Source of the DNA: Ideonella alba
GTDB taxonomy: Bacteria > Pseudomonadota > Gammaproteobacteria > Burkholderiales > Burkholderiaceae_C
DNA length: 64,000 nucleotides
Direction: 5' to 3'
NCBI RefSeq assembly: GCF_018069875.1
Contig: NZ_JAGQDF010000003.1
Location: 186,001 to 250,000 of the forward strand
Every line of letters starts with the position of its first letter. The stretch's first letter is position 1. The position numbers and the translations under genes are program-made. The notes beneath the pieces are model-generated. The model saw only the letters and a list, made by a program, of their open reading frames with translations, was not told where the DNA came from and made no database searches. Of this stretch, positions 9,515 to 60,094 are shown one piece after another.

Positions 9515-9520
9515 GCCCGG

Positions 9521-10550: not shown

Positions 10551-10652
10551 CAAAGGCTCCGTCGGGAGGTGGTGGGATCGGTGGGTGCCGGCCGGCGGGC
10601 CTGGTGGGGACTCGTCGGGCATTCGGCCTGGTTTTCTGACACACTGGGCCCG

Positions 10653-10669
10653 CGCTGGATGTTCCAGCG
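10653..10669. promoter_or_regulatory. Inverted repeat in the porin/iorA intergenic region
   Basis: CGCTGGA and TCCAGCG form a perfect 7-bp dyad with the spacer TGT. It lies 103 bases upstream of the porin start and 74 bases upstream of iorA, where a shared regulator could bind. I cannot name the factor. Confidence 0.3.
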
Positions 10670-10742
10670 TGGGCGCCTGGGTCACCTGTTGCATGCAGGA
10701 AACATGCCCAACGCCTGCCCGCGGCCCAGCCTGGACCGACCG

Positions 10743-11225: not shown

Positions 11226-13501
11226 GCCGCCGCACCTGGCTGTGGTCGGCGCTGGGTGGCACCGGCGCGCTGGTGGTGGGCTGGAGCGGCCTGCCGCCGC
11301 GCAGCCGCCTGGGCGGCCCCGACACGCTGCCGTCGGCAGCCGGCTCGGTCGGCCTGAACGGCTGGATCGCGGTGCGCCCCGACGGTCAGGTCCACCTGGC
11401 CATGCCCTGGGCCGAGATCGGCCAGGGCGTGCACACCGCGCTGGCGATGCTGGTGGCCGAGGAGATGAACCTGCGCCTGGACCAGGTGCAGCCGATCGAA
11501 GCCCCCCACGAGAAGATCTACGGCAACCTGGCGGTGCTCGAGGCCAGCCTGCCGGTGCACCCGCGCGACACCGAGCCCGGCCACGAGACCCTGGGGGTGC
11601 GCCTGGGCCAGTGGATGGTGCGCAAGCTCGCGCGCGAGCTGGGCCTGGTGATCACCGGCGGCTCATCGACGCTGGCCGACAGCTGGGACACGCTGCGTCT
11701 GGCCGCGGCCACCGCGCGCGCGCAATTGCTGGGCGCCGCCTCGCTGCAATGGAAGCTGCCGGTGGCCGAGCTCACGGTCGAGGCCGGCGTGGTGCGCCAC
11801 GCGGGTGTCCAGCAAGCCCACTACGGTGAGCTGGCTGCAGCGGCGCAGACCACGCGGCCCGGTGAGGTGCGCTTCAAGCCGCGCGAGCAATGGACGCTGA
11901 TCGGCCAGCCGCAGCCGCGCCTGGATGCGCCGGCCAAGAGCCGTGGCCAGGCCCGCTTTGGCATCGATGTGCGCCAGCCCGGGCAGCGCTTCGCGGCGCT
12001 GCGCCACGCGCCGGCGCTGGGCGGGCGCATCGGCGCACTGCGCAACGAGGCCGCGGTGCGGGCCATGCCGGGCGTGCTGGGCATCCACCGCCTGCCGGCT
12101 CCGGCCGACGGCACCGAGTCGGTGGCGGTGGTGGCCACCAACAGCGGCCTGGCCCTGATGGCGCTGCGGGCGCTGGACTTCGAAGCCCTGCCGCCCGAGG
12201 GCGGCGGCGCCGATTCGGCGCGCATCCTGCAGGCGCTGCAGGACGAGGCCCGGCGCGCCGCGGCCGAGGAGGCCGGCTTCTCCTTCCACGCCGACGGCGA
12301 CGCCACCGGCCTGCTGGCGCGCTCGGCCGAGGTGGTGGAGGCGCTCTACCACGCGCCCTACCTGGCCCACGCGACGATGGAGCCGATGAACGCCACCGCG
12401 CGGGTCGATGCGCAGGGTGTCGAGGTCTGGGCGCCGACCCAGGTGCCCGGCCTGGCGCGCGCCGCTGCGGCCCGGCAGGCGGGCGTGCCCGAGTCGCAGG
12501 TGCAGCTGCACATGACGCTGTCGGGCGGCGGTTTCGGCCGCCGGCTGGAAGTCGACAGCGTGGTGCAGGCGGTCGCGCTGGCGCAGCAATTGCCCGGCCA
12601 GACGGTGCAGCTGCTGTGGCCGCGCGAGGAGGATTTCGGCCACGACCTGTACCGGCCCGCCGGTGCGGCGCTGCTGCGCGCCGCGCTGGACAGCCAGGGC
12701 CGCATCCGGGCGCTGAGCATCCACAGCAGCGGCGACGCGATCACGCCGCGCTGGATGGCGCGCAACGTGCCCTGGCTGTCGGGCCCGATCGACACGCCGG
12801 ACAAGACCGCCGCCGAGGGCCTGTTCGACCTGCCCTACGCCATCCCGAACCAGCGCATGCGCCATGTGGCCACGCGCAGCGGCGTGCCGATCGGCAACTG
12901 GCGCTCGGTGGGCCACAGCCACAACGCGTTCTTCTCCGAGGGCTTCATCGACGAGCTGGCGCATGCCGCCAGGCGCGATCCGCTGGCCTTCCGGCTGGCG
13001 ATGCTGGACGAGGCACCGCGCCACGCTGCGGTGCTGCGCCTGGCCGCCGGGAAGGCCGGCTGGGGCCAGCCCCTGGCCGCCGGCCGGGCGCGCGGGCTGG
13101 CGCTTCACGAGAGCTTCGGCAGCATCGTCGCGCTGGTGCTGGAGGTGTCGCTGGAAGGCGGCCGCCCGCGCGTGCACCGCGCCGTCTGCGCGGTCGACTG
13201 CGGCACCGCGATCAACCCCGACGGCGTGGCCCAGCAGGTCGAGGGCAGCATCATCTTCGGCCTGTCGGCGGCGCTGTCGGGGCGCATCGACATCGTCGGC
13301 GGCGTGGTGCAGCAGACCAACTTCCCGGCACAGATGCCGCTGACGCTGCGCGAGACCCCGGCGATCGAGACCCACCTGGTGCCCAGCACCCGCGCGCCCA
13401 CCGGCATGGGCGAGCCGGCCGTGCCGCCGGTGGCGCCCGCCTTGGCCAACGCGCTGTTCGTGCTGAACGGCCGACGCCTGCGCGCCCTGCCGCTGGCCTG
13501 A
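11216..13501 (+). CDS. iorB: Isoquinoline 1-oxidoreductase beta subunit, molybdopterin-binding
   Basis: The 761-residue protein starts with a twin-arginine-type signal (SRRTWLW, then a hydrophobic stretch), so the complex is probably folded with cofactor and exported to the periplasm. The body matches the large subunit of two-subunit IorAB enzymes, with [10 protein letters not shown] near 62, SGGGFGRR near 440 in the cofactor-binding region, and GMGEP near residue 730, whose Glu is the expected catalytic base. I chose the ATG at 11216, inside the end of iorA, because it gives the Tat signal directly. With IorA it would hydroxylate a heterocycle or aldehyde; no cytochrome c partner is adjacent. 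Confidence 0.9.
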
Positions 13502-44874: not shown

Positions 44875-45897
44875 TCAGCCGCCCCGAGCCGTCATCTGAC
44901 ACGCACTGGCCACGGCGCTGGCCACCTCGGGCGGGACGGTCACGGCGACGCTGCTGGCCGCCGATGCGGCACTGGCGACCCGAACCGAGGCCGCCAGGGC
45001 GTCCGCGATGCAGGCACCGACAGCCGCCACGCGGACGGCCTCGGTCAGGTTCTGCGATGCCAGGCCGGTCGAGAACACCTTGCCCACGATGACGTTGGCC
45101 GTCGCCGATGGGGCCGAGGCCGCCGATCCCTGCACCGAGCTTGACGAGTCGAACCGGCCGAAGACCGACAGGGCGTCGGTCTTGCGGCTCTGCAGTGAGG
45201 CCGCGGCCTGAGCCGCTGCGGGATACAGCGCAGCCGCCTCCTTGGTTCTCGCTGTCGTGGCCTCACGCAGTGCAGGCAGCTGGGTGTCCTGTTCGGAGGC
45301 CTTGGTTTGGTAGGCGGCGATCAGCTTGTCGACCAGAGGGCTCAGCTCGTCCTTCGCCGCCCCCTTGGCCATCGCCGCGTTCAGTGACGCATCGCCAATG
45401 CGCTTGAGCGTGGCCATCAACTCGCCCGGCAGGGCGGCCGACGCGGGGACAGCGGCGAGCTGCCCCTTGGCCTGCGCCAGGCCGGCCAGATCGGCCTTGT
45501 ACGACCCCAGGCGCTGTTCGGCCAGGCGAACCGCGGCGCTGGCAGCATCGGCGGCCTTCAGCGCCTGGACGTAGTTGTCGACACGGGCGCGGTGCTCCTG
45601 CGCCAGCGGTGACATGTCGGTGGCATCACCGACACGACCGTTTTCCGCGTAGATCCGCAGCAACTGATCCGCGGACTGCGACGCTGGTGAGGCCACCGCC
45701 ACCGGCACATAGGCTGCATCGACCACCTTGACACCCACATTGAGGGAGACACCGGGTGTCTCCGCCGGGTTGCTGGTCACGTCCACGCCCACACTGATCT
45801 TCGATGAGTACACCAGGGGGGCCTGCTGCAAGGCACAGCCCGCCAGCACAGCGCAGCTGGCCGCCGCCAGGGCCGTGAGTCCGTTCGTCTTCATCAT
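44875..45897 (-). CDS. Predicted outer-membrane or periplasmic lipoprotein of unknown function
   Basis: The 340-residue protein has a lipoprotein signal peptide with lipobox LAGC (Cys near 20). The mature part starts with a beta-rich segment (ISVGVDVTSNPAETPGVSLNVGVKVVDAAYVPV) followed by a long Ala-rich helical region (about 80-340) likely to form coiled-coil structure. AAGGAGA precedes tandem ATG codons. Its start overlaps the stop of the 132-residue lipoprotein gene upstream (ATGA), so the two are co-translated. I recognise no family. Confidence 0.72.
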   Translation of the reverse strand: MMKTNGLTALAAASCAVLAGCALQQAPLVYSSKISVGVDVTSNPAETPGVSLNVGVKVVDAAYVPVAVASPASQSADQLLRIYAENGRVGDATDMSPLAQEHRARVDNYVQALKAADAASAAVRLAEQRLGSYKADLAGLAQAKGQLAAVPASAALPGELMATLKRIGDASLNAAMAKGAAKDELSPLVDKLIAAYQTKASEQDTQLPALREATTARTKEAAALYPAAAQAAASLQSRKTDALSVFGRFDSSSSVQGSAASAPSATANVIVGKVFSTGLASQNLTEAVRVAAVGACIADALAASVRVASAASAASSVAVTVPPEVASAVASACQMTARGG

Positions 45898-46292
45898 GGT
45901 TCTCCTTGCTCCGAAAAGACGCACCAGCCTTGCGCGAGGGCGCCGGTGGTGCGCAACCAGTCCATGAATCGCTGGACCGATGCCGGGTCCGGCAGACTGA
46001 TGAACATGCGACAGGCGGTCGTCGAGTTGGCCATCACGCTGCGTTCGATCACCGCGCCCAGGGTCGCCGACCGCGGGCCCAGCAGCAGCCCGACCCCGGC
46101 GCTGTCGACCACGGCCAGACCTCGTGCGTCCGGCTCCACGGTGATCTGGGCGATGCCGGGGTACCAGCGAACACGCGGCTCACCCTGTCGAACCTGAACC
46201 ACCGTGCATGCGGACAAAGAGGTGAGCGCGAGCATGGCCGCCACCACCCGCCAGCCGCGGCCGCCTGCCCGCGCACAAGCCACATCCACCAT
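45894..46292 (-). CDS. Small predicted lipoprotein of unknown function
   Basis: The 132-residue product has an Arg-containing N-region, a hydrophobic helix and the lipobox LSAC near residue 29. The mature domain has WYPGIAQITVEPD, SAGVGLLLGPRSATLGA and a C-terminal Cys that could pair with an internal one (TACRMF and GWCVF). I chose the ATG at 46292, with GGGGAGG upstream, over a TTG six bases earlier. It is the first gene of a two-gene leftward operon that is divergent from an outer-membrane barrel gene. Confidence 0.68.
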   Translation of the reverse strand: MVDVACARAGGRGWRVVAAMLALTSLSACTVVQVRQGEPRVRWYPGIAQITVEPDARGLAVVDSAGVGLLLGPRSATLGAVIERSVMANSTTACRMFISLPDPASVQRFMDWLRTTGALAQGWCVFSEQGEP

Positions 46293-46500
46293 GACCAACC
46301 TCCCCGAGCCCGGGTGACGCCCGCCCTCACCCGGCCCTGGTGGCGTTTGTCGCGCAGCACAGCGTCTCGCGCATCGTCAACTTCGTGGATGAGTCGGTGG
46401 AGGCATCACGGAAGACCTGCCAGCGGCGGTGGCGGCCGCGATGGTTCAGGACGTTGGACAATCACCGCCACGCCACCTGTCTTCTCGCCTGGGCTCGACC

Positions 46501-48018
46501 ATGACCAATCGCTCGCGTCGTCTCTCCTCCGCACTGACCCTGGGCCTGCTGGCCAGCCTGACGGCACACGCCCAGGACAGCACGCCCCCCGACGGCAGCC
46601 TGCGCCGCCACGACGCGCTCATCACGCTGGACTACCAGAAGATCAAGGTGCCCGGCGACGCGCCGATCGACTTCATGGGCTTTCACCTCTACCACCCGGT
46701 GGGCGAGCGCCTGCACCTGGGCGCGGGGGTGTATGCGCCGCTGGTGCATGGCGGCTACGGCGGCTTCATGGCCTTCGACCTGGGTGCCTACCTGCGCCAG
46801 CCGATCAGCGGTCCGCTGTTCGCCACTGCGGGCCTGTCGGCCGGCGGTGGCGGCGGTGGGCGCAGCATCGCGCAGAGCAAGGTGCTGTCGGGCACCGGCG
46901 GCTTCGTCAAGGGCCATGTCGGGCTGGGCTGGGACTTCGGCCGCTTCGCGGTGGGGGTCAATGCAGCCAAGGTGAAGTTCCGCAGCTCGGCGATCGACAG
47001 CACCCAGGCCAATCTCTTCGTCGAGATTCCGTACAGCTACCTCACCGGCCCCTTCGCCAGCCAGGGCACGCCCTTGTCCGCGGCCGACGAGCGCCGTGCC
47101 GCCGCCGAGGTGGGCGAGAACATGCTGACGGTGACGCTGGACAACTACCGCCAGAGCAGCCCGCAGGGCAACTTCAAGGGCACGCTGCGCCTGGCCGACC
47201 TGCAGTACGCGCACTTCTTCGCCCCCGACACCTACTGGTTCGGCGCGATCGGCGTGGGCTACCGCGGTCTGCCGATCTACAACCAGGTGCTGGGCGGCGT
47301 GGGCCAGCGCTGGCGCGTGGCCCCGAACTGGGCGCTGTACGGCCAGTTGGGCCTGGGCTCGGGTGGCTACTCGCCCGAGCAGATCGACACCGGCCCGGGC
47401 CTGCTGGTCTATCCCAAGCTGAGCGCCGAATACGCGCTGAGCCCGACGCTGGGCCTTTCGCTGTCGGTGGGCCACATGAGCGCGCCCAAGGCCAGCTCAC
47501 GCAACACCACCTACGGCCTGGCGCTGACCCACCACCTGCGCCCCAGCCGCGCGGGCGACGAGGGCCCGTCGCACTGGCAGGGCTTCCGCGTCAGCCTGTT
47601 CCACCAGACCGATTTCAAGCTGGTCTACCGCGACATCGCGCGGCCGCCGCTGCAGATGATCGGTATCCAGGTCGACACGCCGCTCAATGAGCGCTGGTAC
47701 GTGCCGGTGCAGGCCGCGGTGGCCTACAACGCCTACCTGGGCTACCCCGGCTACGGCGAGCTGCTGACCGGCCTGGGCCTGCAAAGCCGCGCCGCGGCCA
47801 GCGATCGCTGGCAGTGGTTCGGCCAGGCGATGGTGGGCGCGAACGTGCACGGCACCGCAGCCAAGGCCAGCGGCGGCGTGCGCTACATCCTGGACGACCA
47901 GATGTCGCTGAGCCTGAACCTGGGCCGGCTGGAGGCCCGCAGCTCGGCCGGCCGGCGCTTCAGCGCCGACACCGTGGGCCTGGGCGTGGACTACCGCTTC
48001 TCGACGCCCACGCGCTGA
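46501..48018 (+). CDS. Outer-membrane beta-barrel protein of unknown function
   Basis: The 505-residue protein has a signal peptide (about 1-24, ending AHAQ) and many amphipathic beta strands with Gly and aromatic residues throughout, for example LHLGAGVYAPLVHGGYGG and FKLVYRDIARPPLQMIG. It ends VGLGVDYRF plus a short tail, close to the aromatic end typical of barrels. The repeated architecture suggests a large barrel or two smaller ones. It is divergent from the two lipoprotein genes, 208 bases away, and could share regulation with them. An ATG upstream in frame would bury the signal peptide. Confidence 0.72.
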   Translation: MTNRSRRLSSALTLGLLASLTAHAQDSTPPDGSLRRHDALITLDYQKIKVPGDAPIDFMGFHLYHPVGERLHLGAGVYAPLVHGGYGGFMAFDLGAYLRQPISGPLFATAGLSAGGGGGGRSIAQSKVLSGTGGFVKGHVGLGWDFGRFAVGVNAAKVKFRSSAIDSTQANLFVEIPYSYLTGPFASQGTPLSAADERRAAAEVGENMLTVTLDNYRQSSPQGNFKGTLRLADLQYAHFFAPDTYWFGAIGVGYRGLPIYNQVLGGVGQRWRVAPNWALYGQLGLGSGGYSPEQIDTGPGLLVYPKLSAEYALSPTLGLSLSVGHMSAPKASSRNTTYGLALTHHLRPSRAGDEGPSHWQGFRVSLFHQTDFKLVYRDIARPPLQMIGIQVDTPLNERWYVPVQAAVAYNAYLGYPGYGELLTGLGLQSRAAASDRWQWFGQAMVGANVHGTAAKASGGVRYILDDQMSLSLNLGRLEARSSAGRRFSADTVGLGVDYRFSTPTR

Positions 48019-48039: not shown

Positions 48040-48786
48040 TCACGCGCTGCGCCGCGCCCGGTAGAGCATGTCCAGCGTGATGTGCCGCACCTCGAGCTTG
48101 CTCTGCGCGATGTGGGCGCGCAGCAGGCGCTGGGCCTCGTCGGCGCGGCGGCGGGTGATGGCGCGCAGGATGCGCGCGTGCTCGTCGTAGGTGGCGTCGA
48201 TGCGCGCCGCCTTGGTGAAGTCCAGCCGGCGGATGATGCGGATGCGCTCGGTGATCTCCTGGTGCACGCGCGCCATCTCGCGGTTGCCGCTGCCCTGCAC
48301 CAGCAGCGCATGGAACTGCTCGTCGAGTGCGCCGACCTGGGCGCCGTCGCGCAGGCGCTCGGCCGCCGGCACCAGCCAGACATCGGCCAGCTGCCGCAGT
48401 TCGGGGCGCTCTTCGTGTTCGGCCAGGTGCCGGGCGGCGTCGCACTCGATCAGCACGCGCAGGTCGTAGAGCTCGTCCATCACGTCGAAGTCCAGCGGCG
48501 CCACCTGCCAGCCCAGCCTGGGCACCAGCTGCAGCAGACCCTCGCGTGCCAGGCGTTGCAGCGCGGCGCGCAGCGGCGTGCGGCTGACCTGCACGCGCTG
48601 CGCCAGCTCGGACTCGGAGATGCGCTCGCCGGGCATCAGCGCGAAGTCCACCACCATCTGCTTGATGCGCGCATGCGCCTGGTCGGCCAGCGTGGGCTCG
48701 CTGGCGGGGCCGGGGGCCACGCGCACCACGGTGGCGGCGCGTGTCGGGCGGGGGGCGGATTGGCGGGGACGTGTCGAGCTGGGCAT
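48040..48786 (-). CDS. GntR-family regulator (FCD subfamily) of the biuret operon
   Basis: The 248-residue protein has a winged helix-turn-helix (about 35-100: DQAHARIKQMVVDFALMPGERISESELAQRV, SRTPLRAALQRL) and an all-helical FCD ligand-binding domain (about 105-240) with the metal-site pattern D-x3-R and later His residues (DEQFHALL, YDEHARIL). It is the last gene of the nine-gene leftward operon, 21 bases after hpxZ. FCD regulators usually repress their operon until the substrate binds. The TTGTATACC site upstream of the operon is a plausible operator. Confidence 0.92.
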   Translation of the reverse strand: MPSSTRPRQSAPRPTRAATVVRVAPGPASEPTLADQAHARIKQMVVDFALMPGERISESELAQRVQVSRTPLRAALQRLAREGLLQLVPRLGWQVAPLDFDVMDELYDLRVLIECDAARHLAEHEERPELRQLADVWLVPAAERLRDGAQVGALDEQFHALLVQGSGNREMARVHQEITERIRIIRRLDFTKAARIDATYDEHARILRAITRRRADEAQRLLRAHIAQSKLEVRHITLDMLYRARRSA

Positions 48787-48807
48787 CTGGCCGGAATGAT
48801 AAGCAGC

Positions 48808-49206
48808 TCAGTCGGCCTGGAACGGGATCATGCTGACGTGGGCGGCCACGATGCGCCAGCCCTCGGCCAGGCGCACCCAGGTCTGGGTCTGGAAGCCGCG
48901 CAGCGCGGTGTCGCTGCGCACGAACTCCACCTGGGCCACCGCCACGTCGTGGCCGAAGCTGTGCAGGCGCAGGTGGTGCAGCGTGCGCGTGAACTGGGGC
49001 GCGGGTGTGGCGGCTCGGTAGGCGCGCAGCTCGTCAATGCCCCACTGGCGGTCGGCGATGCCGTAGCGGGTGGTGCGCGCGTCGTCCCAGAAGAAGGCGT
49101 TGAGCGCGTCCACGTCGTTGGCCATCAGCGCGGCCTCGTAGGCCACGAACACGGCGTGCAGCTCCTCCAGCACCAGCTCGTCGTCGATCAGGCGGGTGTC
49201 GATCAT
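48808..49206 (-). CDS. hpxZ: HpxZ/AtzH-like protein (DUF3225, NTF2 fold)
   Basis: The 132-residue protein matches HpxZ: LVLEELHAVFVAYEAALMANDVDALNAFFWDD-type start, then RTTRYGIADRQWGIDELRAYR and a closing GWRIVAAHVSMI. The NTF2-like fold often accompanies amidase-signature enzymes in oxalurate, hydantoin or cyanuric acid clusters, where AtzH-like partners are thought to aid the amidase. It lies 4 bases after atzF, which it probably serves. Its exact reaction, if any, is not established. Confidence 0.85.
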   Translation of the reverse strand: MIDTRLIDDELVLEELHAVFVAYEAALMANDVDALNAFFWDDARTTRYGIADRQWGIDELRAYRAATPAPQFTRTLHHLRLHSFGHDVAVAQVEFVRSDTALRGFQTQTWVRLAEGWRIVAAHVSMIPFQAD

Positions 49207-49210
49207 GGCC

Positions 49211-51010
49211 TCAGCGCCCCTGCGCCAGGTAGGCGCGCCAGCCGCCGAAGGCGCTGATGTCGGGCGCGCCCTGCAGCGCGGCGCCCTCGCAGATGAAGCC
49301 CTTGACCCAGCGGCCGTCGGCCAGCTCGACATTGCCCAGGCCCAGCGGCGGCGGGATCAGCGCCAGGAAGGAGCCGAGCGCCGCCTGCGGCAGCTCGTAG
49401 ACCTCCAGCGCGATCGCATGGCCGGGCTGCTCCTCGGCCACGCGCGCCAGCCCGGGCTTGGGCGGCGTGCTGCCCGGCAGCGCATGCAGGCGGTAGCGTG
49501 CGGCCGTGGTGGTGCGCGCCAGCAGGCGTGCGCCGCGCTCGACCAGCTGGCCGTGCAGCGGCAGGCCCTGCAGGTGCGCCCCCACCACCGCCAGCGCCAG
49601 CGTGGGCGCGGCCTGCGGGCGGCGGCCCGGCGCGCGGTCCTCGGCGCGGGCCGGGCGCAGCCGGGCACCCAGCGGCGCCGGGCCGGCGGCCTCCCAGCGC
49701 AGGCCCCAGTCGACCAGCGCGGCATCGGCGCCGCCCGGACCGATCAGCGTGACGCCAAACGGCAGGCCGCCGTCCTCGGGCAGCACCGCGGGCAGCGCCA
49801 GCGCCGACCAGCCCAGCAGGTTGACGAAGTTGGTGTAGCGGCCCAGCTCGCTGTTGCGCCGCACCGGCTCGGCCGCCACCGCGGCCAGCGTGGGGCAGGT
49901 GGGCGCGGTGGGCACCAGCAGCGCATCCACCTGCTGCCACAGCGGTGCCAGGCGGGCTCGCAGCTCCTCCAGCCGGTAGCGGCCCAGGAAGGCGTCGTCG
50001 GCGCTGTAGCGGGTGGCGGCGCCGATCACCGCGGCCACCGTGGGGTCCAGGGCCTCGGGCTGGCGCGCCATCAGGTCGGCCACCACGCTGTGGCGCTCGG
50101 CCACCCAGGGGCCGTCGTAGAGCAGCTCGGCCACCTCGAACAGCGGGCCGAAGTCCAGCGGCACGGTCTCGGCGCCCAGGCTGCGCGCGCGCGCCAGCGC
50201 GTCGTCGAACGCGCGGTCCCAGCCCAGCGCGCTGTCGCAGCCGGGGCGGTCGGGCACGCCCAGGCGCAGCGCGGGGCGCGCGCCGCCCAGCCAGGGGGGC
50301 TGCAGCGCGGGCCAGGCGAAGCGCGGTTCGTCGTCGGCGCCCTCGATCCAGGCCATCACCTCGGCGGCGTCGGCCACGGTCAGCGCAAAGACGCTGACCA
50401 CGTCCAGCGTGCGGCAGGCCGGCAGCACGCCGGCCATGGGCACGCGCCCGGGCGAGGGCTTCAGGCCCACCAGGTGGTTGAAGCCGGCCGGCACGCGGCC
50501 CGAACCGGCGGTGTCGGTGCCCAGCGCGAAGGGCACCAGGCCGCGCGCCACCACCGACGCCGAGCCCGAGCTGGAGCCGCCGCTGACAAACGCCGGATCG
50601 AAGCTGTTGGGCACCGCGCCATAGGGCGAGCGGGTGCCCACCAGGCCGGTGGCGAACTGGTCCAGGTTGGTCTTGCCGATGCACACCGCGCCGGCCTGCT
50701 GCAGCCGCTGCACGCAGGTGGCGCTGGCGGCGGGCTCGTGCGCGAAGGCCGGGCAGGCGGCGGTGGTGGGCAGGCCCGCCACGTCGATGTTGTCCTTCAC
50801 CGCGAAGGGCACGCCCCACAGCGGCAACGCGGCGCTGCGCGGCGGCAGCGCGGCCAGCTGGGCCTCGATCACGGCGCAGCTGGCGCGGGTGATCCAGGCC
50901 GGGTCCTGGGCCGACAGCCGGGCCAGCAGCGCGCCGTACAGCGGCAGCGGCTCGGCGCCCTCGTCGTAGGCGCGGCGCCAGTCGGCGATGGTGTGCAGGG
51001 GGCGGTTCAT
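49211..51010 (-). CDS. atzF: Allophanate hydrolase AtzF
   Basis: The 599-residue enzyme hydrolyses allophanate to ammonia and CO2. The amidase-signature domain (about 1-450) carries the Ser-cisSer-Lys triad: K72 in FAVKDN, the cis-Ser in GGSSSGSA near 147 and the nucleophile S170 in [11 protein letters not shown]. The C-terminal domain (about 475-599), with GFICEG near 575, is the allophanate-hydrolase-specific part of AtzF/DUR2 proteins. Its ATG overlaps the previous gene's stop by 4 bases. No urea carboxylase is encoded nearby, so allophanate probably comes from biuret rather than urea. Confidence 0.94.
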
Positions 51011-51675
51011 GGGGGGCTCAGCGCGTCGATCAGGGTGGCCGATGGCGCGCTCCAGCCGACGATCGCGCCCTGCGCGGTCAGCATCGCCAGCGTGGCCGCC
51101 TTGAAGGCGGGGAAGTAGCTCTCGGTGCCGTCTTCCACCACCAGGCAGTCATAGCCGCGGTCGTTGGCCTCGCGCATCGAGGTCTGCACGCAGACCTCGG
51201 TGGTCACACCCATGAAGACCAGGTGGCTGATGCCGTGGCCGCGCAGCAGCGCATCGACCTGGGTGCCGCAGAACATGCCCTTGCCGGGCTTGTCGATCAC
51301 CCACTCGCCGGGCCGCGGCGCCAGCTCGGGAATGATCTGGTTGCCGGGCTCGCCAGCCACCAGGATGCGACCCATCGGGCCGGTGTCGCCGATGCGCAGC
51401 GTGGGCGCGCCGCGCAGGCGCTTGGCGGGCGGGCAGTCGGACAGATCCGGCGCATGCGCCTCGCGCGTGTGCAGCACGCGGCCGCCGGCGGCGCGCCAGG
51501 CGTCCAGCACGCGGCGCACCGTGGGCACGATGGCCTGCAGCCGGGTGACGTCGTTGCCCAGCGACTCGCCAAAGCCGCCGGGCTCGACGAAGTCGCGCTG
51601 CATGTCGATGATCACCAGCGCGGTGTGCGCCAGCTCGAACGGGTACTCGAAGGGGGTGGCGGCCAGGCGGATCAT
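51007..51675 (-). CDS. Isochorismatase-like cysteine hydrolase, BiuH paralog (candidate triuret hydrolase)
   Basis: The 222-residue protein has the isochorismatase-like fold with triad D24 (IIDMQRDF), K129 (VIDKPGKG) and C162 (TTEVCVQTS). It is similar throughout to the BiuH encoded two genes upstream, including [29 protein letters not shown] and [11 protein letters not shown], but differs around the substrate pocket (NDVTRLQ in place of the BiuH helix). Known relatives act on triuret, biuret or ureidoacrylate. Together with BiuH and AtzF the likeliest job is triuret to biuret. It overlaps the ABC ATPase gene and atzF by 4 bases each. Confidence 0.8.
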
Positions 51676-53216
51676 GCGTGCGTCTCCTGCGGGCCATGGG
51701 CACGTCCGCCCATGTAGGCGCCCAGCGACTGGCGGCTGGCGCTGCGCGCCGGCGTGTCGTGGACGACACGGCCCTCGCTCATCACCACGATGCGGTCGGC
51801 CAGCGACAGCAGCTCGTCCAGGTCCTCGCTGACCAGCAGCACCGCGGCGCCGCGGTTGCGCGCCGCCATCAGCCGGCCGTGGATCTCGGCCACCGCGGCG
51901 AAGTCCAGGCCGAAGACCGGGTTGCTGACCAGCAGCAGCTCGGCCTGGCCATCCAGTTCACGCGCCAGCACCGCGCGCTGCACATTGCCGCCCGAGAGCG
52001 TGCGGATGGCCGCGCGCTCGCCCTGGGTCTTGACGCCATACTCGGCGATCCACTGACGCGCCCGCGCGCGCAGCGCGCCCCAGCGCACCCAGCCGGCGCG
52101 CGACCAGGGCCGCTCGTCGAAGTGGCGCAGCGCCATGTTCTGCGCCACGCTCAGTGCGCCGACGCAGGCATTGGCCAGTGGCTCCTCAGGCAGGCTGCGC
52201 ACGCGGTGGTGGCGGTTCTCGGCGCGGCGCGCGCCAAAGGCGCGGCCGTCCACCTGCACCCGGCCCGACAGGCGCGCGCGCTGGCCGGTCAGCGCCTGCA
52301 TCAGCTCGCGCTGGCCGTTGCCGCTGACGCCGGCCACGCCGACGATCTCGCCGCGGCGCACCTGCAGGTCCAGGCCGCGCACCGCGGGCTCGCCGCGGTC
52401 GCCCATCACCACCAGTGCATTGATCGCCAGCTTGGTTTCGCCCGGCGGCTGCTCCAGCCGGTCGCTGCGCTCGCCCACGGCCAGCGCGCCCTGGGCCTCG
52501 CCCACCATCGCCTCGGCCAGCGCGGCGGGCGTGGTGTCGGCCACCGCGCCGCTGTGCACCAGGCGGCCGCGGCGCAGCACGCTGACGTCGTCGGCGTGGG
52601 CCATCACCTCGCGGAACTTGTGGGTGATCATCAGCACCGAGCAGGCGCCCGAGCGGGCCTGCTCGCGCAGCGCGCCCAGCACCTCGTCGGCCTCCTGCGG
52701 CGTCAGCACCGAGGTGGGCTCGTCCAGGATCAGCAGGCGGGGCTTGAGGAACAGCTGCTTGAGGATCTCGAGCTTCTGCTTCTCGCCCGCCGACAGGTCC
52801 AGCGGTGTGGCGTCCAGCGGCAGGCGGAACGGCGTGGTCTGCAGAAAGGCCTCCAGCTCGGCGCGGGCGCTGCGCCAGTCGATGCGCATGGGCAGTCGGC
52901 CGCGCGCCAGCAGCAGGTTCTCGGCCACCGTCATGCCTGGCACCACGGTGAAGTGCTGGTAGACCATGCCCAGGCCCAGGTCACGCGCCACCGTGGGCGA
53001 GTGGATGTCCTGCTCGCGGCCATCCACCAGCACCGCGCCCTCGTCGGGCCGCTGGTAGCCGACGATGCACTTGACCAGCGTGCTCTTGCCCGCGCCGTTC
53101 TCGCCCAGCAGCGCGTGCACGGTGCCCGGTCGCACCGCCAGGCTCACGCCCTGCAGCGCGGTGAAGCTGCCGAAGCGCTTGCCCAGCTCGAAGGTCTGCA
53201 GCGACAGCGCGGTCAT
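51672..53216 (-). CDS. Double ABC ATPase of a BMP/nucleoside-type importer
   Basis: The 514-residue protein has two nucleotide-binding domains, like RbsA and the YufO/NupO proteins. Domain 1 is complete: GENGAGKST near 38, [11 protein letters not shown] and [12 protein letters not shown]. Domain 2 is degenerate: Walker A is GVSGNGQRE, without the usual Lys-Ser/Thr, and Walker B is [12 protein letters not shown]. This is normal for the family, in which one site does most of the hydrolysis. The start could also be the GTG at 53225 that overlaps the biuH stop. It powers the two permeases encoded upstream. Confidence 0.92.
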
Positions 53217-53221
53217 CGCGC

Positions 53222-53905
53222 TCACCAGCCGGCCAGCAGCTCGAGCACCGCGGCCGAGTCGGACACCGCGCCGAACACCCCGCCCTGCATCTGGATCATC
53301 TTCAGCGCGGCCTCGTGGTTGCCGCGGTCGGTGGCGCCGGTGCAGTCGGACAGCATCACGCACTCGAAGCCGCGGTCGTTGGCCTCGCGCATCGTGGTGT
53401 GCACGCACACGTCGGTGGTGATGCCGGTGAGGATCAGGTTGCGGATGCCGCGGGTGTGCAGGATCAGTTCCAGGTCGGTGGCGCAGAAGCTGCCCTTGCC
53501 GGGCTTGTCGATGATGGGCTCGCCGTCGATCGGGTAGAGCTCGGGGATGATGTCCCAGCCGGGTTCACCGCGCACCAGGATGCGGCCGCAGGGGCCGACA
53601 TCGCCGATGCCGGCGCCGATGGCCTGGCTGCGCCAGCGCTTGTTGGCCGGCAGGTCGGACAGGTCGGGGCGGTGGCCTTCGCGGGTGTGGATCACGTGCA
53701 GGCCGGTGCGGCGGGCCTCGGCCAGCAGGCGCGTCAGCGGCTCGATCGGCGCGCGCGTCATCGACAGGTCGTAGCCCATCTTGTCCACGTAGCCGCCGAC
53801 GCCGCAGAAATCGGTCTGCATGTCGATGATCACCAGCGCGGTGTTCTGCGGCGTGACCTGGCCGTCATAGGGCCAGGCGTAGGGCACGGAGCGGAGGGTG
53901 GGCAT
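53222..53905 (-). CDS. biuH: Biuret amidohydrolase (biuret hydrolase)
   Basis: The 227-residue enzyme cleaves biuret to allophanate and ammonia. It keeps the family's triad, D28 (IIDMQTDF), K134 ([10 protein letters not shown]) and C167 (TTDVCVHTT), and a long stretch typical of Biu[45 protein letters not shown] and [13 protein letters not shown]. Agreement with rhizobial BiuH, as I recall it, is high over the whole length. The gene sits between a permease gene and the ATPase gene of the transporter, which ties import to hydrolysis. Its start is 20 bases after the permease stop. Confidence 0.92.
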
Positions 53906-53925
53906 GGTCGGATCGTCCTTTCAGG

Positions 53926-54846
53926 TCAGCGCGAGACACCCAGCTCGGCCGGCGCGCCCTTGAGCGTGCGGCTGGGCGAGCAGGTGGCCACCAGGATGGC
54001 CAGCGTCAGCACATAGGGCATGGCGTTGAACAGGTAGTAGCCGCCGCTGATGCCCACGCTCTGCAGCGCGGGCCCGACGGCGCCGGCACCACCGAACAGC
54101 AGCGCCGCGCCCAGGCAGCGCCAGGGGTGCCAGCGGGCGAAGATCACCAGCGCCACCGCGATCAGACCCTGGCCGCTGGACAGGCCTTCGTTCCAACTGC
54201 CCGGGTAGTACAGCGACAGCGAGGCGCCGCCCAGCCCGGCGATGAAGCCGCCGGCGGTGGTGGCGGCGATGCGCACGCCATTGACCGAGTAGCCCAGCGC
54301 GCGTGCCGCGTCGCTGGAATCGCCCGCCATGCGCACCACCAGGCCCCAGCGGGTGTGGCCCAGGCCCCAGGCCAGCAGCGCCGCCAGCGCCACGCCCAGC
54401 GGGAACAGCGCATTGATCGCCAGCGCCGATTGCACCGCGGGCGAGTCGCTCCAGGCGCCCAGCGGCAGCGACGGGATCTGCGGCGCCTGCGGCTGGATCA
54501 GCGGCTTGCCCAGGTAGAAGGCCAGGCCCGAGCCCAGCAGCATCAGCGCGATGCCGGTGGCGATGTCCGACACCCGCGGCAGCGAGCACAGCAGGCCGTG
54601 CAGCAGCGCCAGCAGCGCGCCGCAACAGCCGGCCAGCAGCACGCCCAGCCAGGGCGAGCCACTCAGGTAGGCGCCACCGAAACCCGCCATGGCGCTGAAC
54701 ACCAGCACGCCTTCCAGGCCCAGGTTGATGCGCCCGCTCTTCTCGGTCAGGCACTCGCCCAGGCTGACAAACAGGAAGGGCGTGCCCACCCGTACCGCGC
54801 CGCCGACCACGGCCAGCAGCAGATCGCCGATCGCACCGTCGGTCAT
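53926..54846 (-). CDS. ABC permease, second subunit (BMP/nucleoside type)
   Basis: The 306-residue protein has about eight to nine membrane helices and the branched-chain/nucleoside permease pattern: FLFVSLGECLTEKSGRINLGLEGVLVFSAMAG near 24-55 and the coupling loop WGLVVRMAGDSSDAARALGYSVN near 190-212, which contacts the ATPase. It pairs with the permease gene that overlaps it by 4 bases upstream. It corresponds to YufQ/NupQ-like subunits of importers that use BMP-type binding proteins. Confidence 0.92.
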   Translation of the reverse strand: MTDGAIGDLLLAVVGGAVRVGTPFLFVSLGECLTEKSGRINLGLEGVLVFSAMAGFGGAYLSGSPWLGVLLAGCCGALLALLHGLLCSLPRVSDIATGIALMLLGSGLAFYLGKPLIQPQAPQIPSLPLGAWSDSPAVQSALAINALFPLGVALAALLAWGLGHTRWGLVVRMAGDSSDAARALGYSVNGVRIAATTAGGFIAGLGGASLSLYYPGSWNEGLSSGQGLIAVALVIFARWHPWRCLGAALLFGGAGAVGPALQSVGISGGYYLFNAMPYVLTLAILVATCSPSRTLKGAPAELGVSR

Positions 54847-55952
54847 GCCGCCTCCGGGACAGCCGGCGCCGCCGGACGCGGCCGGGCGCGGATCACGCTG
54901 AACAGCCGGCCGCGCAGCGCCTCGGCGGCCAGGATGAAGACGAAGGCAAAGCCCTGCAGCACCAGCACCGACGCATCGGGCAGGTCCAGCCGGCGCTGCA
55001 GCAGGCTGCCCGCCGCGCCGAAGCCGCCGAACAGCACCGCCACCGGCGGGATCGCCCAGGGGTTGTGGCGCGCCACGAAGCTGACCAGGATGCCGGTGTA
55101 GCCCAGGCCGGCGATCACCGAGGCATTCGCCGCGGTGTGCACCGCGGCCACCTCGATCGCGCCGGCCAGGCCCGCGCAGGCGCCGCCCAGCGCACAGCCC
55201 AGCAGCACCAGCGCATTCGTCGGCAGGCCCACCAGGCGCGCGGTGCGGGCATTGCCGCCCACCACCCGCAGCGCAAAGCCCGAGGCGCTGAAGCTCAGCC
55301 ACACGCCCGCCGCCACGCACAGCAGCGCGCCGGCGGCCAGGCCCCAGTGCACATCACCCAGCCAGGACGAGAAGGCCTGCTCGCCCATGATCGGGCCGAT
55401 GCGCAGGGCTTCGGGCAGCGGCAGCGTGGAGGGTTTGTTCAGGCTGGCCGGGTCGCGCATCGGGCCCTCGACCAGGTGCTTGAAGAGGGCGATCGCGATG
55501 TAGGACAGCAGCAGGCTGGAGATGGTCTCGTTGACGCCGCGCCACTGCCGCAGCGCCCCCGACAGCGCCACCCAGGCCGCACCGGCCAGGGCGCCGGCGC
55601 CCATCACCAGCGCCTGGCCGAGCAGGCCACCGGGCGGTGCGAACAGGTAGGGCAGGCCGGCACAGGCCAGCGCGCCCAGCACCAGCGCGCCCTCGCCGCC
55701 AATGACGATCAGCCCGGCCTGCGCCGGCAGCGCCACCGCCAGTGCGGTGAGCATCAGCGGCGCGGCGCGCTGCAGCGTGTTCTGCCAGCTGAAGGCGTCG
55801 CCGAACGCGCCCTTGAACAGCAGCGTCCAGGCTTCGACCGGGTCGCTGCCGCCCAGGCGGACGAAGGCGCCGAACATCAGCAGCGCGCCGCCCAGCGCCA
55901 GCAGCGGCAGCAGCAGGCTCTCGGCGGGGGCGTGCCAGCGGGGCGTGGACAT
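54843..55952 (-). CDS. ABC permease, first subunit (BMP/nucleoside type)
   Basis: The 369-residue protein has about nine membrane helices and corresponds to YufP/NupP-like subunits. Family marks include TALAVALPAQAGLIVIGGEGALVLG near 70 and the coupling loop GFALRVVGGNARTARLVGLPTN near 225-247. A cytoplasmic start and a Pro/Ala-rich tail flank the helices. It lies 21 bases after the binding-protein gene and overlaps the second permease gene by 4 bases, so subunit amounts should be balanced. Confidence 0.92.
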   Translation of the reverse strand: MSTPRWHAPAESLLLPLLALGGALLMFGAFVRLGGSDPVEAWTLLFKGAFGDAFSWQNTLQRAAPLMLTALAVALPAQAGLIVIGGEGALVLGALACAGLPYLFAPPGGLLGQALVMGAGALAGAAWVALSGALRQWRGVNETISSLLLSYIAIALFKHLVEGPMRDPASLNKPSTLPLPEALRIGPIMGEQAFSSWLGDVHWGLAAGALLCVAAGVWLSFSASGFALRVVGGNARTARLVGLPTNALVLLGCALGGACAGLAGAIEVAAVHTAANASVIAGLGYTGILVSFVARHNPWAIPPVAVLFGGFGAAGSLLQRRLDLPDASVLVLQGFAFVFILAAEALRGRLFSVIRARPRPAAPAVPEAA

Positions 55953-55973
55953 GGTGCGGCCTGCGCGTGGCGA

Positions 55974-57092
55974 TCAGACCTTGCCGATCACGCCTTCGAC
56001 CAGGTAGTTCATGCCTTCCAGTTCGAGGTCGGTCTGCTTGAAGGTCTTGCCCGCCGGGATCACCAGCTTGCCGGTGTTGTCCTTCAGGCCGCCCTTGAAG
56101 ATGTCGAAGCTGCCCTTGAGCATCGCGGCGCGCACGCTCTCGGCCTGCTTGCGCGCGCCCTCGGGCACCGCGGGGCCGTAGGCGCTGCTCTTGACGAAGC
56201 CGTCCTTCAGACCGCCGCGCACGAAGTTCGGGTGCGGCTTGCCGGCCTGCGCGGCCTCGATGATGGTCTTGTAGGCGGTGATCCAGTTCCACTCGGCGCC
56301 GGTCAGGTAGGCCTGGGGCGCCAGCTTGGCCTGGCTGGCGTGGTAGCCGCAGACGAACTTGCCGCGCTTGGCGGCGGTCTCGACGATCACCTTGGGGCCG
56401 TCCACGTGCATGGTGAACACATCGATGCCCTGGTCGGCCAGGCTGTTGGTGGCCTCGGCTTCCTTGACCGGCATGCTCCAGTCGCCGGTGAAGATCACCG
56501 TGGTGGTGATCTCGGGATTCACGCTGCGCGCGCCCATCGTGAAGGCATTGATGTTGCGCAGCACCTGCGGGATCGGCTTGGCGGCGATGAAGCCCAGCTT
56601 CTTGCTCTTGGTGACATGGCCGGCCACCACGCCGTTGAGGTACTGGCACTCGTCGATGTAGCCGAAGAAGCTGCCGGCGTTCTTCGGGTGCTTGGCCTCG
56701 TTCCACAGGCCGCCGCAGTGGGCGAAGCGCACGTCGGGGAACTTGGGCGCCAGCGCCAGGATGTGCGGGTCGAAGTAGCCGAAGGAGGTGGGGAACAGCA
56801 GCGACGCGCCGTCCTGCGCAATCATGCCCTGCATGGTCTTCTGCACCGCGTTGGTCTCGGGGACGTTCTCCTCCTCGACCACCTTGATGCCGGGCATCTT
56901 CTTGACCATTGCCGCGGCCTCGGCGTGGGCCTGGTTGTAGCCGTAGTCGTCGCGCGGGCCGACGTAGATGAAGCCCACGCTCAGCGGCTTCTGCGCCGCG
57001 GCCAGGCCGCTCCATCCGGCGGTGGCCAGGCCGGCGCCGGCGGCACCGAGGTTCTGCAGCCACTCGCGGCGATTCCATTGCGAACGCGTCAT
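55974..57092 (-). CDS. BMP-family ABC substrate-binding protein
   Basis: The 372-residue protein starts with RSQWNRREWLQNLGAAGAGLATAG, a double-arginine signal that could use Tat or Sec, with cleavage near AAAQ at about 34. The mature part matches BMP (Med/PnrA-like, PF02608) binding proteins: VGFIYVGPRDDYGYNQAH, LLFPTSFGYFDP and GIDVFTMHVDGP. Classic members bind nucleosides, but variants next to amidases probably take ureides or urea oligomers. As the first gene of the operon it should set the specificity for biuret or a related compound. AGGAG lies 8 bases before the ATG. Confidence 0.92.
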   Translation of the reverse strand: MTRSQWNRREWLQNLGAAGAGLATAGWSGLAAAQKPLSVGFIYVGPRDDYGYNQAHAEAAAMVKKMPGIKVVEEENVPETNAVQKTMQGMIAQDGASLLFPTSFGYFDPHILALAPKFPDVRFAHCGGLWNEAKHPKNAGSFFGYIDECQYLNGVVAGHVTKSKKLGFIAAKPIPQVLRNINAFTMGARSVNPEITTTVIFTGDWSMPVKEAEATNSLADQGIDVFTMHVDGPKVIVETAAKRGKFVCGYHASQAKLAPQAYLTGAEWNWITAYKTIIEAAQAGKPHPNFVRGGLKDGFVKSSAYGPAVPEGARKQAESVRAAMLKGSFDIFKGGLKDNTGKLVIPAGKTFKQTDLELEGMNYLVEGVIGKV

Positions 57093-57161
57093 CTGTGCAC
57101 TCCTGAGGTGTGTTGCGCTCCGGCGCCGCCGGATGGCGGTGCTCAGCTTGGTGTCCCGGTC

Positions 57162-57170
57162 GGTATACAA
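57162..57170 (-). promoter_or_regulatory. Candidate GntR/FCD operator TTGTATACC
   Basis: GntR proteins of the FCD group commonly bind short palindromes centred on GTATAC, of the form TTGTATACAA. Here the minus strand reads TTGTATACC. It lies upstream of the first gene of the operon whose last gene encodes an FCD regulator. It is the only such site I noticed in the window. Confidence 0.5.
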
Positions 57171-57214
57171 GCAAGCCGCGGACCAACCTGCGGCGGCCCG
57201 AAAGCCGCGCTGAT

Positions 57215-57357: not shown

Positions 57358-57409
57358 GGATCGGATCGCGCCGCCGGCACGGGTCCTCCGGGTGCGGGAG
57401 ACCCATGCC

Positions 57410-60094
57410 ATGCCGTCACCGCTTCAACTGTCCGCGCAGGTGCTGCAGAGCCTGCCGCACTGGCTGGCCCATCCGGACCAGGTGCTGCCCGAGGCGCTGG
57501 CCCGGCTGGACCCGGATGCGCCCTGGCACGCGCTGGTGCAGCCGGTGCAGGCGCTGCCGCCCGGCGCGCCCGCGCTGGCGCTGCCGTTGCTGTCCACCGA
57601 GCGCCAGACCGCACCCGCAGCGCTGGCGGGCGGCGCCTGGTCGGCCGCCGCGGCCGCCAGCGCGCAGCTCTCCCTGAGCCGACTGGACCGCCCACTGCGC
57701 GACGATGGCCGCGTGCCGATCGAGCTGGCCGTGCGGCTGGATCTGCAGGCGCAGGCCGGCGGTCACGCCGCGGCCTCGGTGCTGGCCGTGGCGGCCGATG
57801 CCGCCTGGACCCAGCGGCTGGTGCTGCGCTGGCAGCAGGCGCTGGACCCGGCCGTGCCGCTGGGGGCGGCCCTGGTTGATCTGCTGGCGCACGGCGCCTG
57901 GCCGCAGGACCTGGCCGGGCTGGTGGCCTGCGCCCAGGACCCGCACTGGCTGGGCCTGCAGCTGGCGTGGGACGGGCAAGCCCAGCTGGGCCTGCAGCTG
58001 CGCAGCACCTGGGACGCCGTGGGCTGGCAGCTGGCGCTGGACGGCGCGTCGGCGCGCCTGGGCCTGTCGCTGGGCCTGGCCGGCACGCTGCGCGCCGAGC
58101 GCGACACCCAATGGCAGTTGTCGGTGACGCCGCAGACCGCGGACGACGGCACGCCCCTGCTGGCGGTGGACCTGCACGACCTGCGCACCCGCCAGCGCGA
58201 TGCGGCGCTGACACTGTCGGCCAGCGCCGACCTGTCCGATCTGGCCGCCCAGGCCGAGCAGGCGCTGCAGCGCGCCAGCGGCGCAGTCGAAGCGGCACTG
58301 CTGGACCGCCTGGTGCGCCCCGGCCAGGCGGTGGTGGCGCGGCTGGAGGCGCTGGTGGCGCAGGCCGTGGATGGCCCCCCCGCCGCGCTGGCCCAGGTGC
58401 GCGACGACCTGGCCCAGGCGCTGGACCAGGCACTGCCCGAGCTGCTGGCCGATCAGGCGCTGGATGCCGCCCGTCTGCCGCCGCTGTTGCAGGCGCTGCT
58501 GCAGCGCCTGCCGGTCCCGGCCGCGCGCCTGCCGGCGCTGGTGGAGGGCGCCGCCGCCTTGGCGCAGGCGCAGCTGCAGGACGCGCTGCAAGCCCTGAGC
58601 ACCGCCTGGCAGGCGCACAGCGCGCCGCTGCGCGACACCTTCCTGGCCCGCCTGGGCGCGCTGGGCGCGCAGTTCGACCCGCTGCCCGAGGCTGCCGATG
58701 CGGCACAGGCCCTGGCGCTGGCGCGCGAGGCCCTGCAGCGCTACGCCGCGCAGCGCCAGCGCCTGCAAACCGCCTTGCAGCAGGCGCAGCGCCAACGGCT
58801 GGCACTGACACTGGCCGGCCGCTGGCAGCAGCAGCGCGCCGACGAGGCCATGGTCTCGCTGCGCTTGGCCCTGCACACGCCGCCCAGCGCCGCGGAGCAG
58901 CAGCTGCAGGCGGCGCTGTGCAGCGGCCGCCTGGCGCGCCTGGGCCCGCTGCTGGAGGCCGCCCGTGCCGACGGCAGCCTGCAAGACGCCCAGGGCTGGC
59001 TGCAGGCCAGCGCGCAGTCGCTGAGCGAGCAGCGCGTGAGCCTGGACCTGCCCGATGGCCAGATCGGCAGCCAGAGCCGCTGGTCGCGCAGCCTGCAGAT
59101 CCGCACCGCGCTGGGCAGTGGCGAGCTGATCGGCGGGCGCGCCGAGGCCGAGGTCGAGACCGCCATCGCCCACCGCTGGAAGCAGCGCAGCGCGCGGCTG
59201 GGCGTGCAGCTGGCGCTGCTGACCGACGCCCCGGGCGGCGCGCTGCGCCTGGCAGTGGCCCTGGACGGCGGCTTCGTGGCCGAGCGCGAGGGCCGCGCCA
59301 CGCGCCAGCGCGTGCAGGCCCTGCTGGACGACCTGGCGCAGGCGGGGGTGGTGCCGCGGCGCGACCTGGGCCACTGGCTGGGCCTGAGCCCGGCCGAGCT
59401 GGACAGCGCCGACTGGCGCGACCTGCGCCTGGCCTGGCCGCTGCACCTGACGCCCGCGCAGTGGCAGCGCTTTGCCGATCAGCCGCCACAGGCGGTGGAC
59501 CGCGTGAGCCTGGCCGCGCTGCTGCCGATCTTCGCCCGCCGCTACGCCCGCGACGCGCTGTTCTCGGACGACCCGGTGGCCGACCTGTGCGACCTGGCCG
59601 GCGGCCCGGACGACGAGGCGCTGCTGGCCTGGCTGCGCCGCTTTCCCGAACGCTATGTGGACCGCGCCCGCGTGGCCACCGAGGCCCCGCGGGTGAACAT
59701 CGTGGCCACCCACAGCGGCGGCCTGGCCGACCGCGGCACGCGCCAGTACCTGATCGCCCAGCGCCTGGCGGCCACGGTGCTGGCGCCGTCGCGGCTGCAG
59801 GCCCTGGCGCGCCAGGCCCAGCAGGCGCTGGACGGCCTGCCGGCGCCGCTGGACCCGGCCGCCGCGCGCGCCGCGCTGGACCCGCTGCTGCAGCGCATGC
59901 AGCAGGTGCTGGCGCCGGTGGCGCTGGCCAGCGAGACCTGGCTGGCCATCGGCCTGGGCGGCGCGGCCGATGAGCCCGTGGCCTGGCCGCTGGTGGGCTT
60001 TGCCGCGGCCATGGCGCCGCTGGCCGGGCTGCCGGTGCCGCCGGGCTTCCTGCCGGTGCTGCAGTGGGGCGAGCAGACCCAGGTGCTGGCCTGA
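57410..60094 (+). CDS. Large cytoplasmic protein of unknown function
   Basis: The 894-residue protein has no signal peptide or membrane helix and is very rich in Ala, Leu, Gln and Arg. The first 260 residues alternate hydrophobic and polar residues as in beta-rich domains (for example VPIELAVRLDLQAQAG and LLAVDLHDLRTR). Residues about 270-560 are long amphipathic helices, and the last 330 look globular, with a conserved-looking NIVATHSGGLADRGTRQYL. I recognise no domain. The ATG at 57410 has GGGAG upstream; a GTG at 57392 is an alternative. It is followed after 110 bases by a NarL-type regulator gene in the same direction. Confidence 0.6.
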   Translation: MPSPLQLSAQVLQSLPHWLAHPDQVLPEALARLDPDAPWHALVQPVQALPPGAPALALPLLSTERQTAPAALAGGAWSAAAAASAQLSLSRLDRPLRDDGRVPIELAVRLDLQAQAGGHAAASVLAVAADAAWTQRLVLRWQQALDPAVPLGAALVDLLAHGAWPQDLAGLVACAQDPHWLGLQLAWDGQAQLGLQLRSTWDAVGWQLALDGASARLGLSLGLAGTLRAERDTQWQLSVTPQTADDGTPLLAVDLHDLRTRQRDAALTLSASADLSDLAAQAEQALQRASGAVEAALLDRLVRPGQAVVARLEALVAQAVDGPPAALAQVRDDLAQALDQALPELLADQALDAARLPPLLQALLQRLPVPAARLPALVEGAAALAQAQLQDALQALSTAWQAHSAPLRDTFLARLGALGAQFDPLPEAADAAQALALAREALQRYAAQRQRLQTALQQAQRQRLALTLAGRWQQQRADEAMVSLRLALHTPPSAAEQQLQAALCSGRLARLGPLLEAARADGSLQDAQGWLQASAQSLSEQRVSLDLPDGQIGSQSRWSRSLQIRTALGSGELIGGRAEAEVETAIAHRWKQRSARLGVQLALLTDAPGGALRLAVALDGGFVAEREGRATRQRVQALLDDLAQAGVVPRRDLGHWLGLSPAELDSADWRDLRLAWPLHLTPAQWQRFADQPPQAVDRVSLAALLPIFARRYARDALFSDDPVADLCDLAGGPDDEALLAWLRRFPERYVDRARVATEAPRVNIVATHSGGLADRGTRQYLIAQRLAATVLAPSRLQALARQAQQALDGLPAPLDPAAARAALDPLLQRMQQVLAPVALASETWLAIGLGGAADEPVAWPLVGFAAAMAPLAGLPVPPGFLPVLQWGEQTQVLA

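Follow-up and report, generated by a model that had tools for sequence, protein, structure and literature searches.

A predicted triuret and biuret scavenging operon of Ideonella alba and the glutamine-marked binding-protein clade of its importer

Biuret and triuret are by-products that occur with urea fertiliser. Operons that encode the triuret hydrolase TrtA, the biuret amidohydrolase BiuH and the allophanate hydrolase AtzF together were published in 2020 for Herbaspirillum sp. BH-1 and Rhizobium leguminosarum 3841 (PMC7948467). In 2025, atzF, biuH, a putative trtA and a putative trtB were described together with bmpA-nupABC in ammonia-oxidising bacteria, and similar sets in comammox Nitrospira (PMC12625717). 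Here we analyze a related nine-gene operon of Ideonella alba. It lies in a 64 kb (64,000 nucleotides) stretch of contig NZ_JAGQDF010000003.1 (assembly GCF_018069875.1, positions 186,001 to 250,000), referred to below as the window, to which all positions of the operon refer. In all probability, the operon serves nitrogen scavenging from triuret and biuret, combining their import with breakdown to ammonia.

The described systems resemble this locus to different degrees. The Herbaspirillum and R. leguminosarum operons share with it TrtA, BiuH and AtzF, including the same catalytic and nearly all specificity residues; the text of that report names the enzymes only, whereas here a BMP-type importer, an AtzH-like protein and a GntR regulator are encoded as well (PMC7948467). 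In the nitrifier clusters, a BMP-type importer accompanies the same enzymes, and gntR appears in the legend of the synteny figure. That study, however, names the importer as a nucleoside transporter, and the comammox clusters are described without trtB and with allFGHK (PMC12625717). The pRL10 cluster of R. johnstonii 3841 has the same order of genes (BMP protein, two permeases, BiuH, ATPase, TrtA) and a Gln-type binding pocket; unlike our locus, it also includes formamidase, atzD and cupin genes, its GntR gene is divergent, and AtzF is absent from the stretch shown. Finally, in Pseudomonas sp. ADP a BMP-type protein, AtzT, is encoded near an AtzF pathway, in this case for s-triazines, and the system includes the ABC importer genes AtzS-AtzW (PMC6834077). 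Since the enzymes in one operon, and the enzymes with a BMP importer, have already been published, the operon is not new in kind, and the novelty suggested by an initial annotation of this DNA is not supported. What is added here is the link between the importer block and BiuH, a Gln-marked clade of binding proteins and a candidate GTATAC operator.

As initially annotated, nine genes occupy one strand; the open reading frames run from 57092 to 48040 on the minus strand. They are transcribed in the order BMP binding protein, permease A, permease B, BiuH, ATP-binding cassette (ABC) ATPase, TrtA, AtzF, AtzH/HpxZ-like protein and GntR regulator; the matches to these families lie well beyond chance level (Table 1). 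The successive intergenic distances are 21, -4, 20, -4, -4, -4, 4 and 21 bases; no gap exceeds 21 bases. The annotated three 4-base overlaps are obtained if the ATPase starts at ATG 53216, three codons downstream of GTG 53225; with the GTG start there are four. The genome carrying the operon is 5.5 Mb in size. For comparison we used the best 80 of 344 confirmed TrtA loci, a set biased toward close relatives. The closest named relative by TrtA in this set is Ideonella aquatica (97%; near-self records may have been left out), and all nine proteins of its block are 96-99% identical to those of I. alba.

Two hydrolases and the route to ammonia

Both hydrolases match the isochorismatase family (E 1.5e-43 and 8.8e-43), and residues known from characterized homologs separate them. 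The first, P0006, is predicted to be a true BiuH. It is 76.4% identical to the R. leguminosarum BiuH of known structure; the latter's sequence matches that of the R. johnstonii 3841 gene with the same arrangement at 100% identity over the compared stretch. P0006 has the catalytic triad D28/K134/C167 and all ten BiuH residues considered: D36, F41, Y53, K142, K145, D173, Q215, V218 and, where TrtA has F35 and A134, Tyr and Ser, the latter two placed by a constant offset. This signature is identical in all 72 homologs of at least 68% identity.

The second hydrolase, P0004, reaches only 249.9 bits with NF050097, the BiuH equivalog model (cut-off 370). By sequence, it is predicted to be the triuret hydrolase TrtA, an enzyme characterized by high activity on triuret and next to none on biuret: it aligns without gaps to Herbaspirillum TrtA (6xix) at 67.4% identity, has the triad D24/K129/C162 and keeps 13 of the 14 published active-site and specificity residues (D24, K129, C162, F29, F35, N41, E72, K132, A134, T158, E160, Y187, Q202 and I205). 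At the positions by which PMC7948467 tells the two enzymes apart, P0004 has F35, N41, E160, Y187 and I205, whereas P0006 has Y, Y, D, T and V. A point against this assignment is position 134, which is Met here and Ala in Herbaspirillum. However, the TrtA variant A134S is reported as not harmful (PMC7948467). Among 81 homologs of at least 66% identity, all match TrtA at the other 13 positions and vary at position 134 alone, 18 of them having Met.

The initial annotation had named action of this second hydrolase on ureidoacrylate, rather than triuret, as a refutation. RutB, the ureidoacrylate hydrolase, belongs to the same isochorismatase-like superfamily and is a detectable relative of P0004, and guanylurea hydrolases are also reported in the isochorismatase-like family (PMC9800807). 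The ungapped identity and the 13 shared residues speak against either function. Moreover, in a comparison that covered TrtA and RutB, but not the guanylurea hydrolase GuuH, P0004 matches TrtA with E 1e-91 and RutB with E 2.9e-29, and the operon includes no other pyrimidine-utilization gene. We therefore regard a ureidoacrylate or guanylurea hydrolase as highly improbable. Since P0004 has the TrtA signature and is far closer to TrtA than to RutB, triuret breakdown is supported in addition to that of biuret, in agreement with the annotated substrates.

The direct conversion of triuret to biuret, also annotated, needs revision. The reported product of TrtA is carboxybiuret. This compound turns into biuret by decay (half-life ~20 minutes) or through decarboxylation by TrtB (PMC7948467). 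TrtA would accordingly convert triuret to carboxybiuret and ammonia, and carboxybiuret would lose CO2 to give biuret, either spontaneously or aided by the AtzH-like protein. BiuH would then hydrolyze biuret to allophanate and ammonia, and AtzF would release ammonia and CO2 from allophanate. AtzF (P0003) has the Lys-Ser-Ser triad K72/S147/S170, so that all three annotated triads are found. It combines an Amidase domain (E 4.1e-83) with the allophanate hydrolase C-domain (E 2e-50) and is the sole allophanate hydrolase match over the TIGR02713 cut-off in the genome. The enzyme identities come from sequence and signature residues and the chemistry from published homologs; the cargo of the importer, the reaction of the AtzH-like protein and the regulation are inferred.

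The AtzH-like gene is one of the nine initially counted, yet it was given no role. Its product, P0002, keeps eight of the nine AtzH pocket residues listed in PMC6219798, including the equivalents of Tyr22 and Arg46. The residue not kept is Arg66, which is not among the variants reported as weaker in the text of that study. An AtzH-like decarboxylase fits the step from carboxybiuret to biuret, and P0002 may be a carboxybiuret decarboxylase. Several observations weigh against this role. The NCBIfam model NF033625, over its cut-off, names P0002 HpxZ, a protein of oxalurate catabolism. AtzH itself is reported to be active on 1,3-dicarboxyurea (PMC6219798). In two Rhizobium operons a cupin gene stands next to TrtA in place of the AtzH-like gene, and an Enterobacter plasmid set has neither. 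P0002 could accordingly function in oxalurate catabolism or act on 1,3-dicarboxyurea and take no part in the triuret route. We consider this a possible but clearly less favored reading: the operon includes no AtzE-type partner and the genome has no AtzE over the cut-off, while 54 of the 80 TrtA loci (with flanks of varying length) contain an AtzH-like gene.

Table 1. Features of the operon in window coordinates
Feature	Position	Strand	Evidence
BMP/PnrA-type substrate-binding protein P0009, 372 aa	55974..57092	-	PF02608 E 1.7e-38; best PDB match 6pi5 AtzT E 7.9e-66
ABC permease A	54843..55952	-	PF02653 (BPD_transp_2) E 7e-26
ABC permease B	53926..54846	-	PF02653 (BPD_transp_2) E 1.9e-31
Predicted BiuH biuret amidohydrolase P0006, 227 aa	53222..53905	-	NF050097 421.5 bits, cut-off 370; signature residues
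Double-domain ABC ATPase	51672..53225 (GTG 53225 or ATG 53216)	-	two PF00005 (ABC_tran) stretches, E 2.1e-47
Predicted TrtA triuret hydrolase P0004, 222 aa	51007..51675	-	best PDB match 6xix TrtA E 1e-91
AtzF allophanate hydrolase with C-terminal domain P0003, 599 aa	49211..51010	-	TIGR02713 741.2 bits, cut-off 511.05; PF21986
AtzH/HpxZ-like protein P0002, 132 aa	48808..49206	-	PF11533 E 4.4e-44; NF033625 139.3 bits, cut-off 135
GntR/FCD regulator, 248 aa	48040..48786	-	PF00392 + PF07729
Candidate GntR operator GCTTGTATACCGACCG	57157..57172	-	GTATAC core 57163-57168

No Pfam family was matched (E 0.001) by the four open frames flanking the operon (44875-48018 and 57392-60094).

The importer and its binding protein

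The importer is complete. It consists of a Bmp binding protein, two BPD_transp_2 permeases and a double ABC_tran ATPase and, together with the GntR/FCD regulator, it bears out the initial annotation. The BMP protein would capture a urea oligomer in the periplasm for import by the two permeases and the ATPase. After its first five residues, the N-terminus of P0009 reads NRREWLQNLGAAGAG, which by eye resembles a twin-arginine export signal.

The closest relative of P0009 with a solved structure is AtzT (39.7% identity over 330 aligned positions). According to the contacts given for AtzT (PMC6834077), Tyr45, Ser97, Phe98 and Trp194 are kept in P0009 as Y52, S103, F104 and W205, whereas Glu165, Asn218 and Asn220 are replaced by Gln176, His229 and Asp231. 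His and Asp at the latter two positions are not specific, because many Glu-type relatives share both. Glu165 contacts guanine in AtzT, and an acidic residue at this position would be expected of a guanine-binding protein of the AtzT type; P0009 has Gln176.

We divided the binding proteins by identity to P0009 into 71 biuret-linked proteins (at least 45%) and 19 others (32-41%). Three remote matches at 23%, with Ser at the key position, were excluded from both classes and from the tree. Among the biuret-linked proteins, 68 have Gln and three have Ser or Thr; BiuH at 60% identity or more is also encoded at 70 of the 71 loci. The exceptions to Gln are L073 and L080, which have Ser and a BiuH, and L081, which has Thr and no BiuH; L numbers denote individual loci. 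Of the 19 others, 18 have Glu and one (L098) has Gln. Phylogenetic analysis placed the 72 biuret-linked sequences, P0009 included, in a single clade with a support of 100/100. Since they form one clade, the association with Gln largely represents one evolutionary event rather than 68 independent ones. Six plasmid proteins were considered outside this tally. Gln is present in the four that adjoin BiuH (L111, L112, L145 and L151). Thr is found in L150, which has no BiuH annotated within the 15 kb shown, and Asp in L149, which has no importer genes beside it. The Gln-pocket BMP gene of L098 (4519-6362) stands beside an isochorismatase-like gene with 32% identity to BiuH; its protein forms a long branch drawn next to the biuret clade.

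With both a hydrogen-bond donor and an acceptor, Gln would be well matched to a urea oligomer, rich in amides, rather than to a purine. On balance, we favor the view that the P0009 clade comprises BMP importers that were adapted from the uptake of purines to that of biuret and triuret, perhaps also cyanuric acid, and are marked by the change from Glu to Gln at the residue that reads the purine N-H. If so, this would be the first dedicated importer for these compounds.

Gene order among relatives and the imported compound

The gene-order count was limited to the 67 of the 80 loci in which the sequence before TrtA extends for 6.5 kb or more. In 61 of them the BMP protein, permease A, permease B, BiuH, ATPase and TrtA follow each other in this order (51 with tight and 10 with wider spacing). 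One of the ten wider loci, L055 (4107-8413), has two insertions: a formamidase gene separates permease B from BiuH, and an NMT1/SsuA-like ABC importer separates BiuH from the ATPase. In L020, L033 and L052, TrtA occurs without a close BiuH; these loci have a different ABC set, whose binding protein shares only ~23% identity with P0009, as well as a distant isochorismatase-like gene.

Of 150 genomes sampled across the phylum, 17 match BiuH at E 1e-50 or better. In all nine whose BiuH reaches 75% identity, importer genes surround it, and TrtA follows directly in five of these nine. From the remaining eight genomes, four loci with TrtA-like or divergent hydrolases (L107-L110) were examined. None of the four has an importer of the P0009 clade; the BMP set of L109 is of the Glu type. 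The importer tracks BiuH more closely than TrtA, which points to biuret as a shared cargo.

Two observations count against the proposed function of the operon. The block is broken in six of the 67 loci, five of which lack both the importer and BiuH, while L081 lacks BiuH only. In addition, a BiuH-type gene on a Duffyella gerundensis plasmid (L147, 3244-6672) adjoins genes for a cytosine permease and an amidase rather than a BMP importer. This indicates that BiuH can go with other uptake, and the cytosine permease is perhaps an alternative route.

According to database annotation, the BMP importer would be a transporter of purine nucleobases or nucleosides that merely shares the operon. Its Pfam family is PnrA-like, the best tested ligand of AtzT is guanine (PMC6834077), and the Tyr and Trp that sandwich guanine (Tyr45 and Trp194 of AtzT) are kept. 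Yet the Glu that contacts guanine is replaced by Gln in nearly all members of the biuret-linked clade and kept in nearly all others. Moreover, BiuH lies among the importer genes in most loci and is absent together with them in five, and two Glu-type BMP paralogs are encoded elsewhere in this genome. We consider a purine transporter improbable and prefer an importer of urea oligomers.

Another candidate for the main cargo is cyanuric acid, alone or with biuret and triuret, in which case this strain would have kept the importer for the linear compounds. The gene atzD lies inside the same operon in R. johnstonii 3841, and an AtzD-type gene follows TrtA in the block of L134, from the same family as this bacterium. 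Another AtzD-type gene lies near BiuH in L093, and a planar ring would suit the aromatic sandwich. However, an AtzD-like frame occurs in just two of the 80 TrtA loci (again with flanks of varying length), and the AtzD profile has no match in the I. alba genome, although 20 of 300 genomes from the order score above the cut-off of this model. The I. alba set thus probably serves the use of triuret and biuret and not of cyanuric acid, and we regard this candidate as unlikely.

Regulation, plasmid-borne relatives and implications

The probable regulator of the operon is the GntR/FCD protein, acting at a site centered on GTATAC before the BMP gene. This candidate GntR operator has its core 71-76 bases before the BMP start codon, and GTATAC occurs at two places in the window. 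Among relatives, a GntR with 60% identity or more accompanies the BMP gene in 14 loci (the window itself excluded); L014 and L034 were dropped for their short upstream regions. GTATAC is present in all 12 usable upstream regions compared with five of 56 others, a count inflated by near-copies. Matches to a sigma-54 promoter before the operon were at chance level in the window, and this candidate was rejected. A sigma-70 consensus scan gave no site, and Rfam gave nothing at the gathering threshold. Four terminator-like sites were found, against a mean of 2.0 in shuffled sequences. Assignment of the regulator to PhnR_burk was also rejected (108 bits, below the cut-off of 271.5).

Related genes also occur on plasmids. 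At E 1e-40, TrtA matches 284 plasmid records, Enterobacterales included, among which BiuH genes may be counted. In L111, an IncR plasmid of Enterobacter hormaechei typed as mobilizable (NZ_CP058178.1, 3802-13425), genes for AtzF, the BMP importer, formamidase, BiuH, TrtA and GntR lie between two IS1 transposase genes. The matches include 78 Escherichia plasmid records, of which one was examined (L148, NZ_CP134087.1, an E. coli plasmid, 5986-12651). Its hydrolase is 57% identical to TrtA and has all 14 checked TrtA residues. Beside it are DUF2877, fdrA and DUF1116 genes and genes for a carbamate kinase and a cytosine permease; the 12.6 kb examined contain no BMP importer. Carbamate kinase may here be coupled to the use of triuret. 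On a plasmid of Peptoclostridium acidaminophilum (L146, 5379-14141), a TrtA/BiuH-like hydrolase with His at E160 and Phe at Y187 is encoded between two xanthine permease genes, followed by a DUF2877/fdrA/DUF1116/carbamate kinase set.

The statement in the initial annotation that no BMP-family transporter of urea oligomers had been characterized was not contradicted by our literature search, although the related AtzT has been studied for s-triazine uptake (PMC6834077). The search, of incomplete coverage, found no test of a BMP importer for biuret or other urea oligomers; an earlier statement on the importer or TrtB may exist (Aukema 2020, Robinson 2018). The enzymes for biuret and triuret are known. 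The clade of binding proteins described here, with its pocket change, could correct the annotation of these importers as nucleoside transporters.

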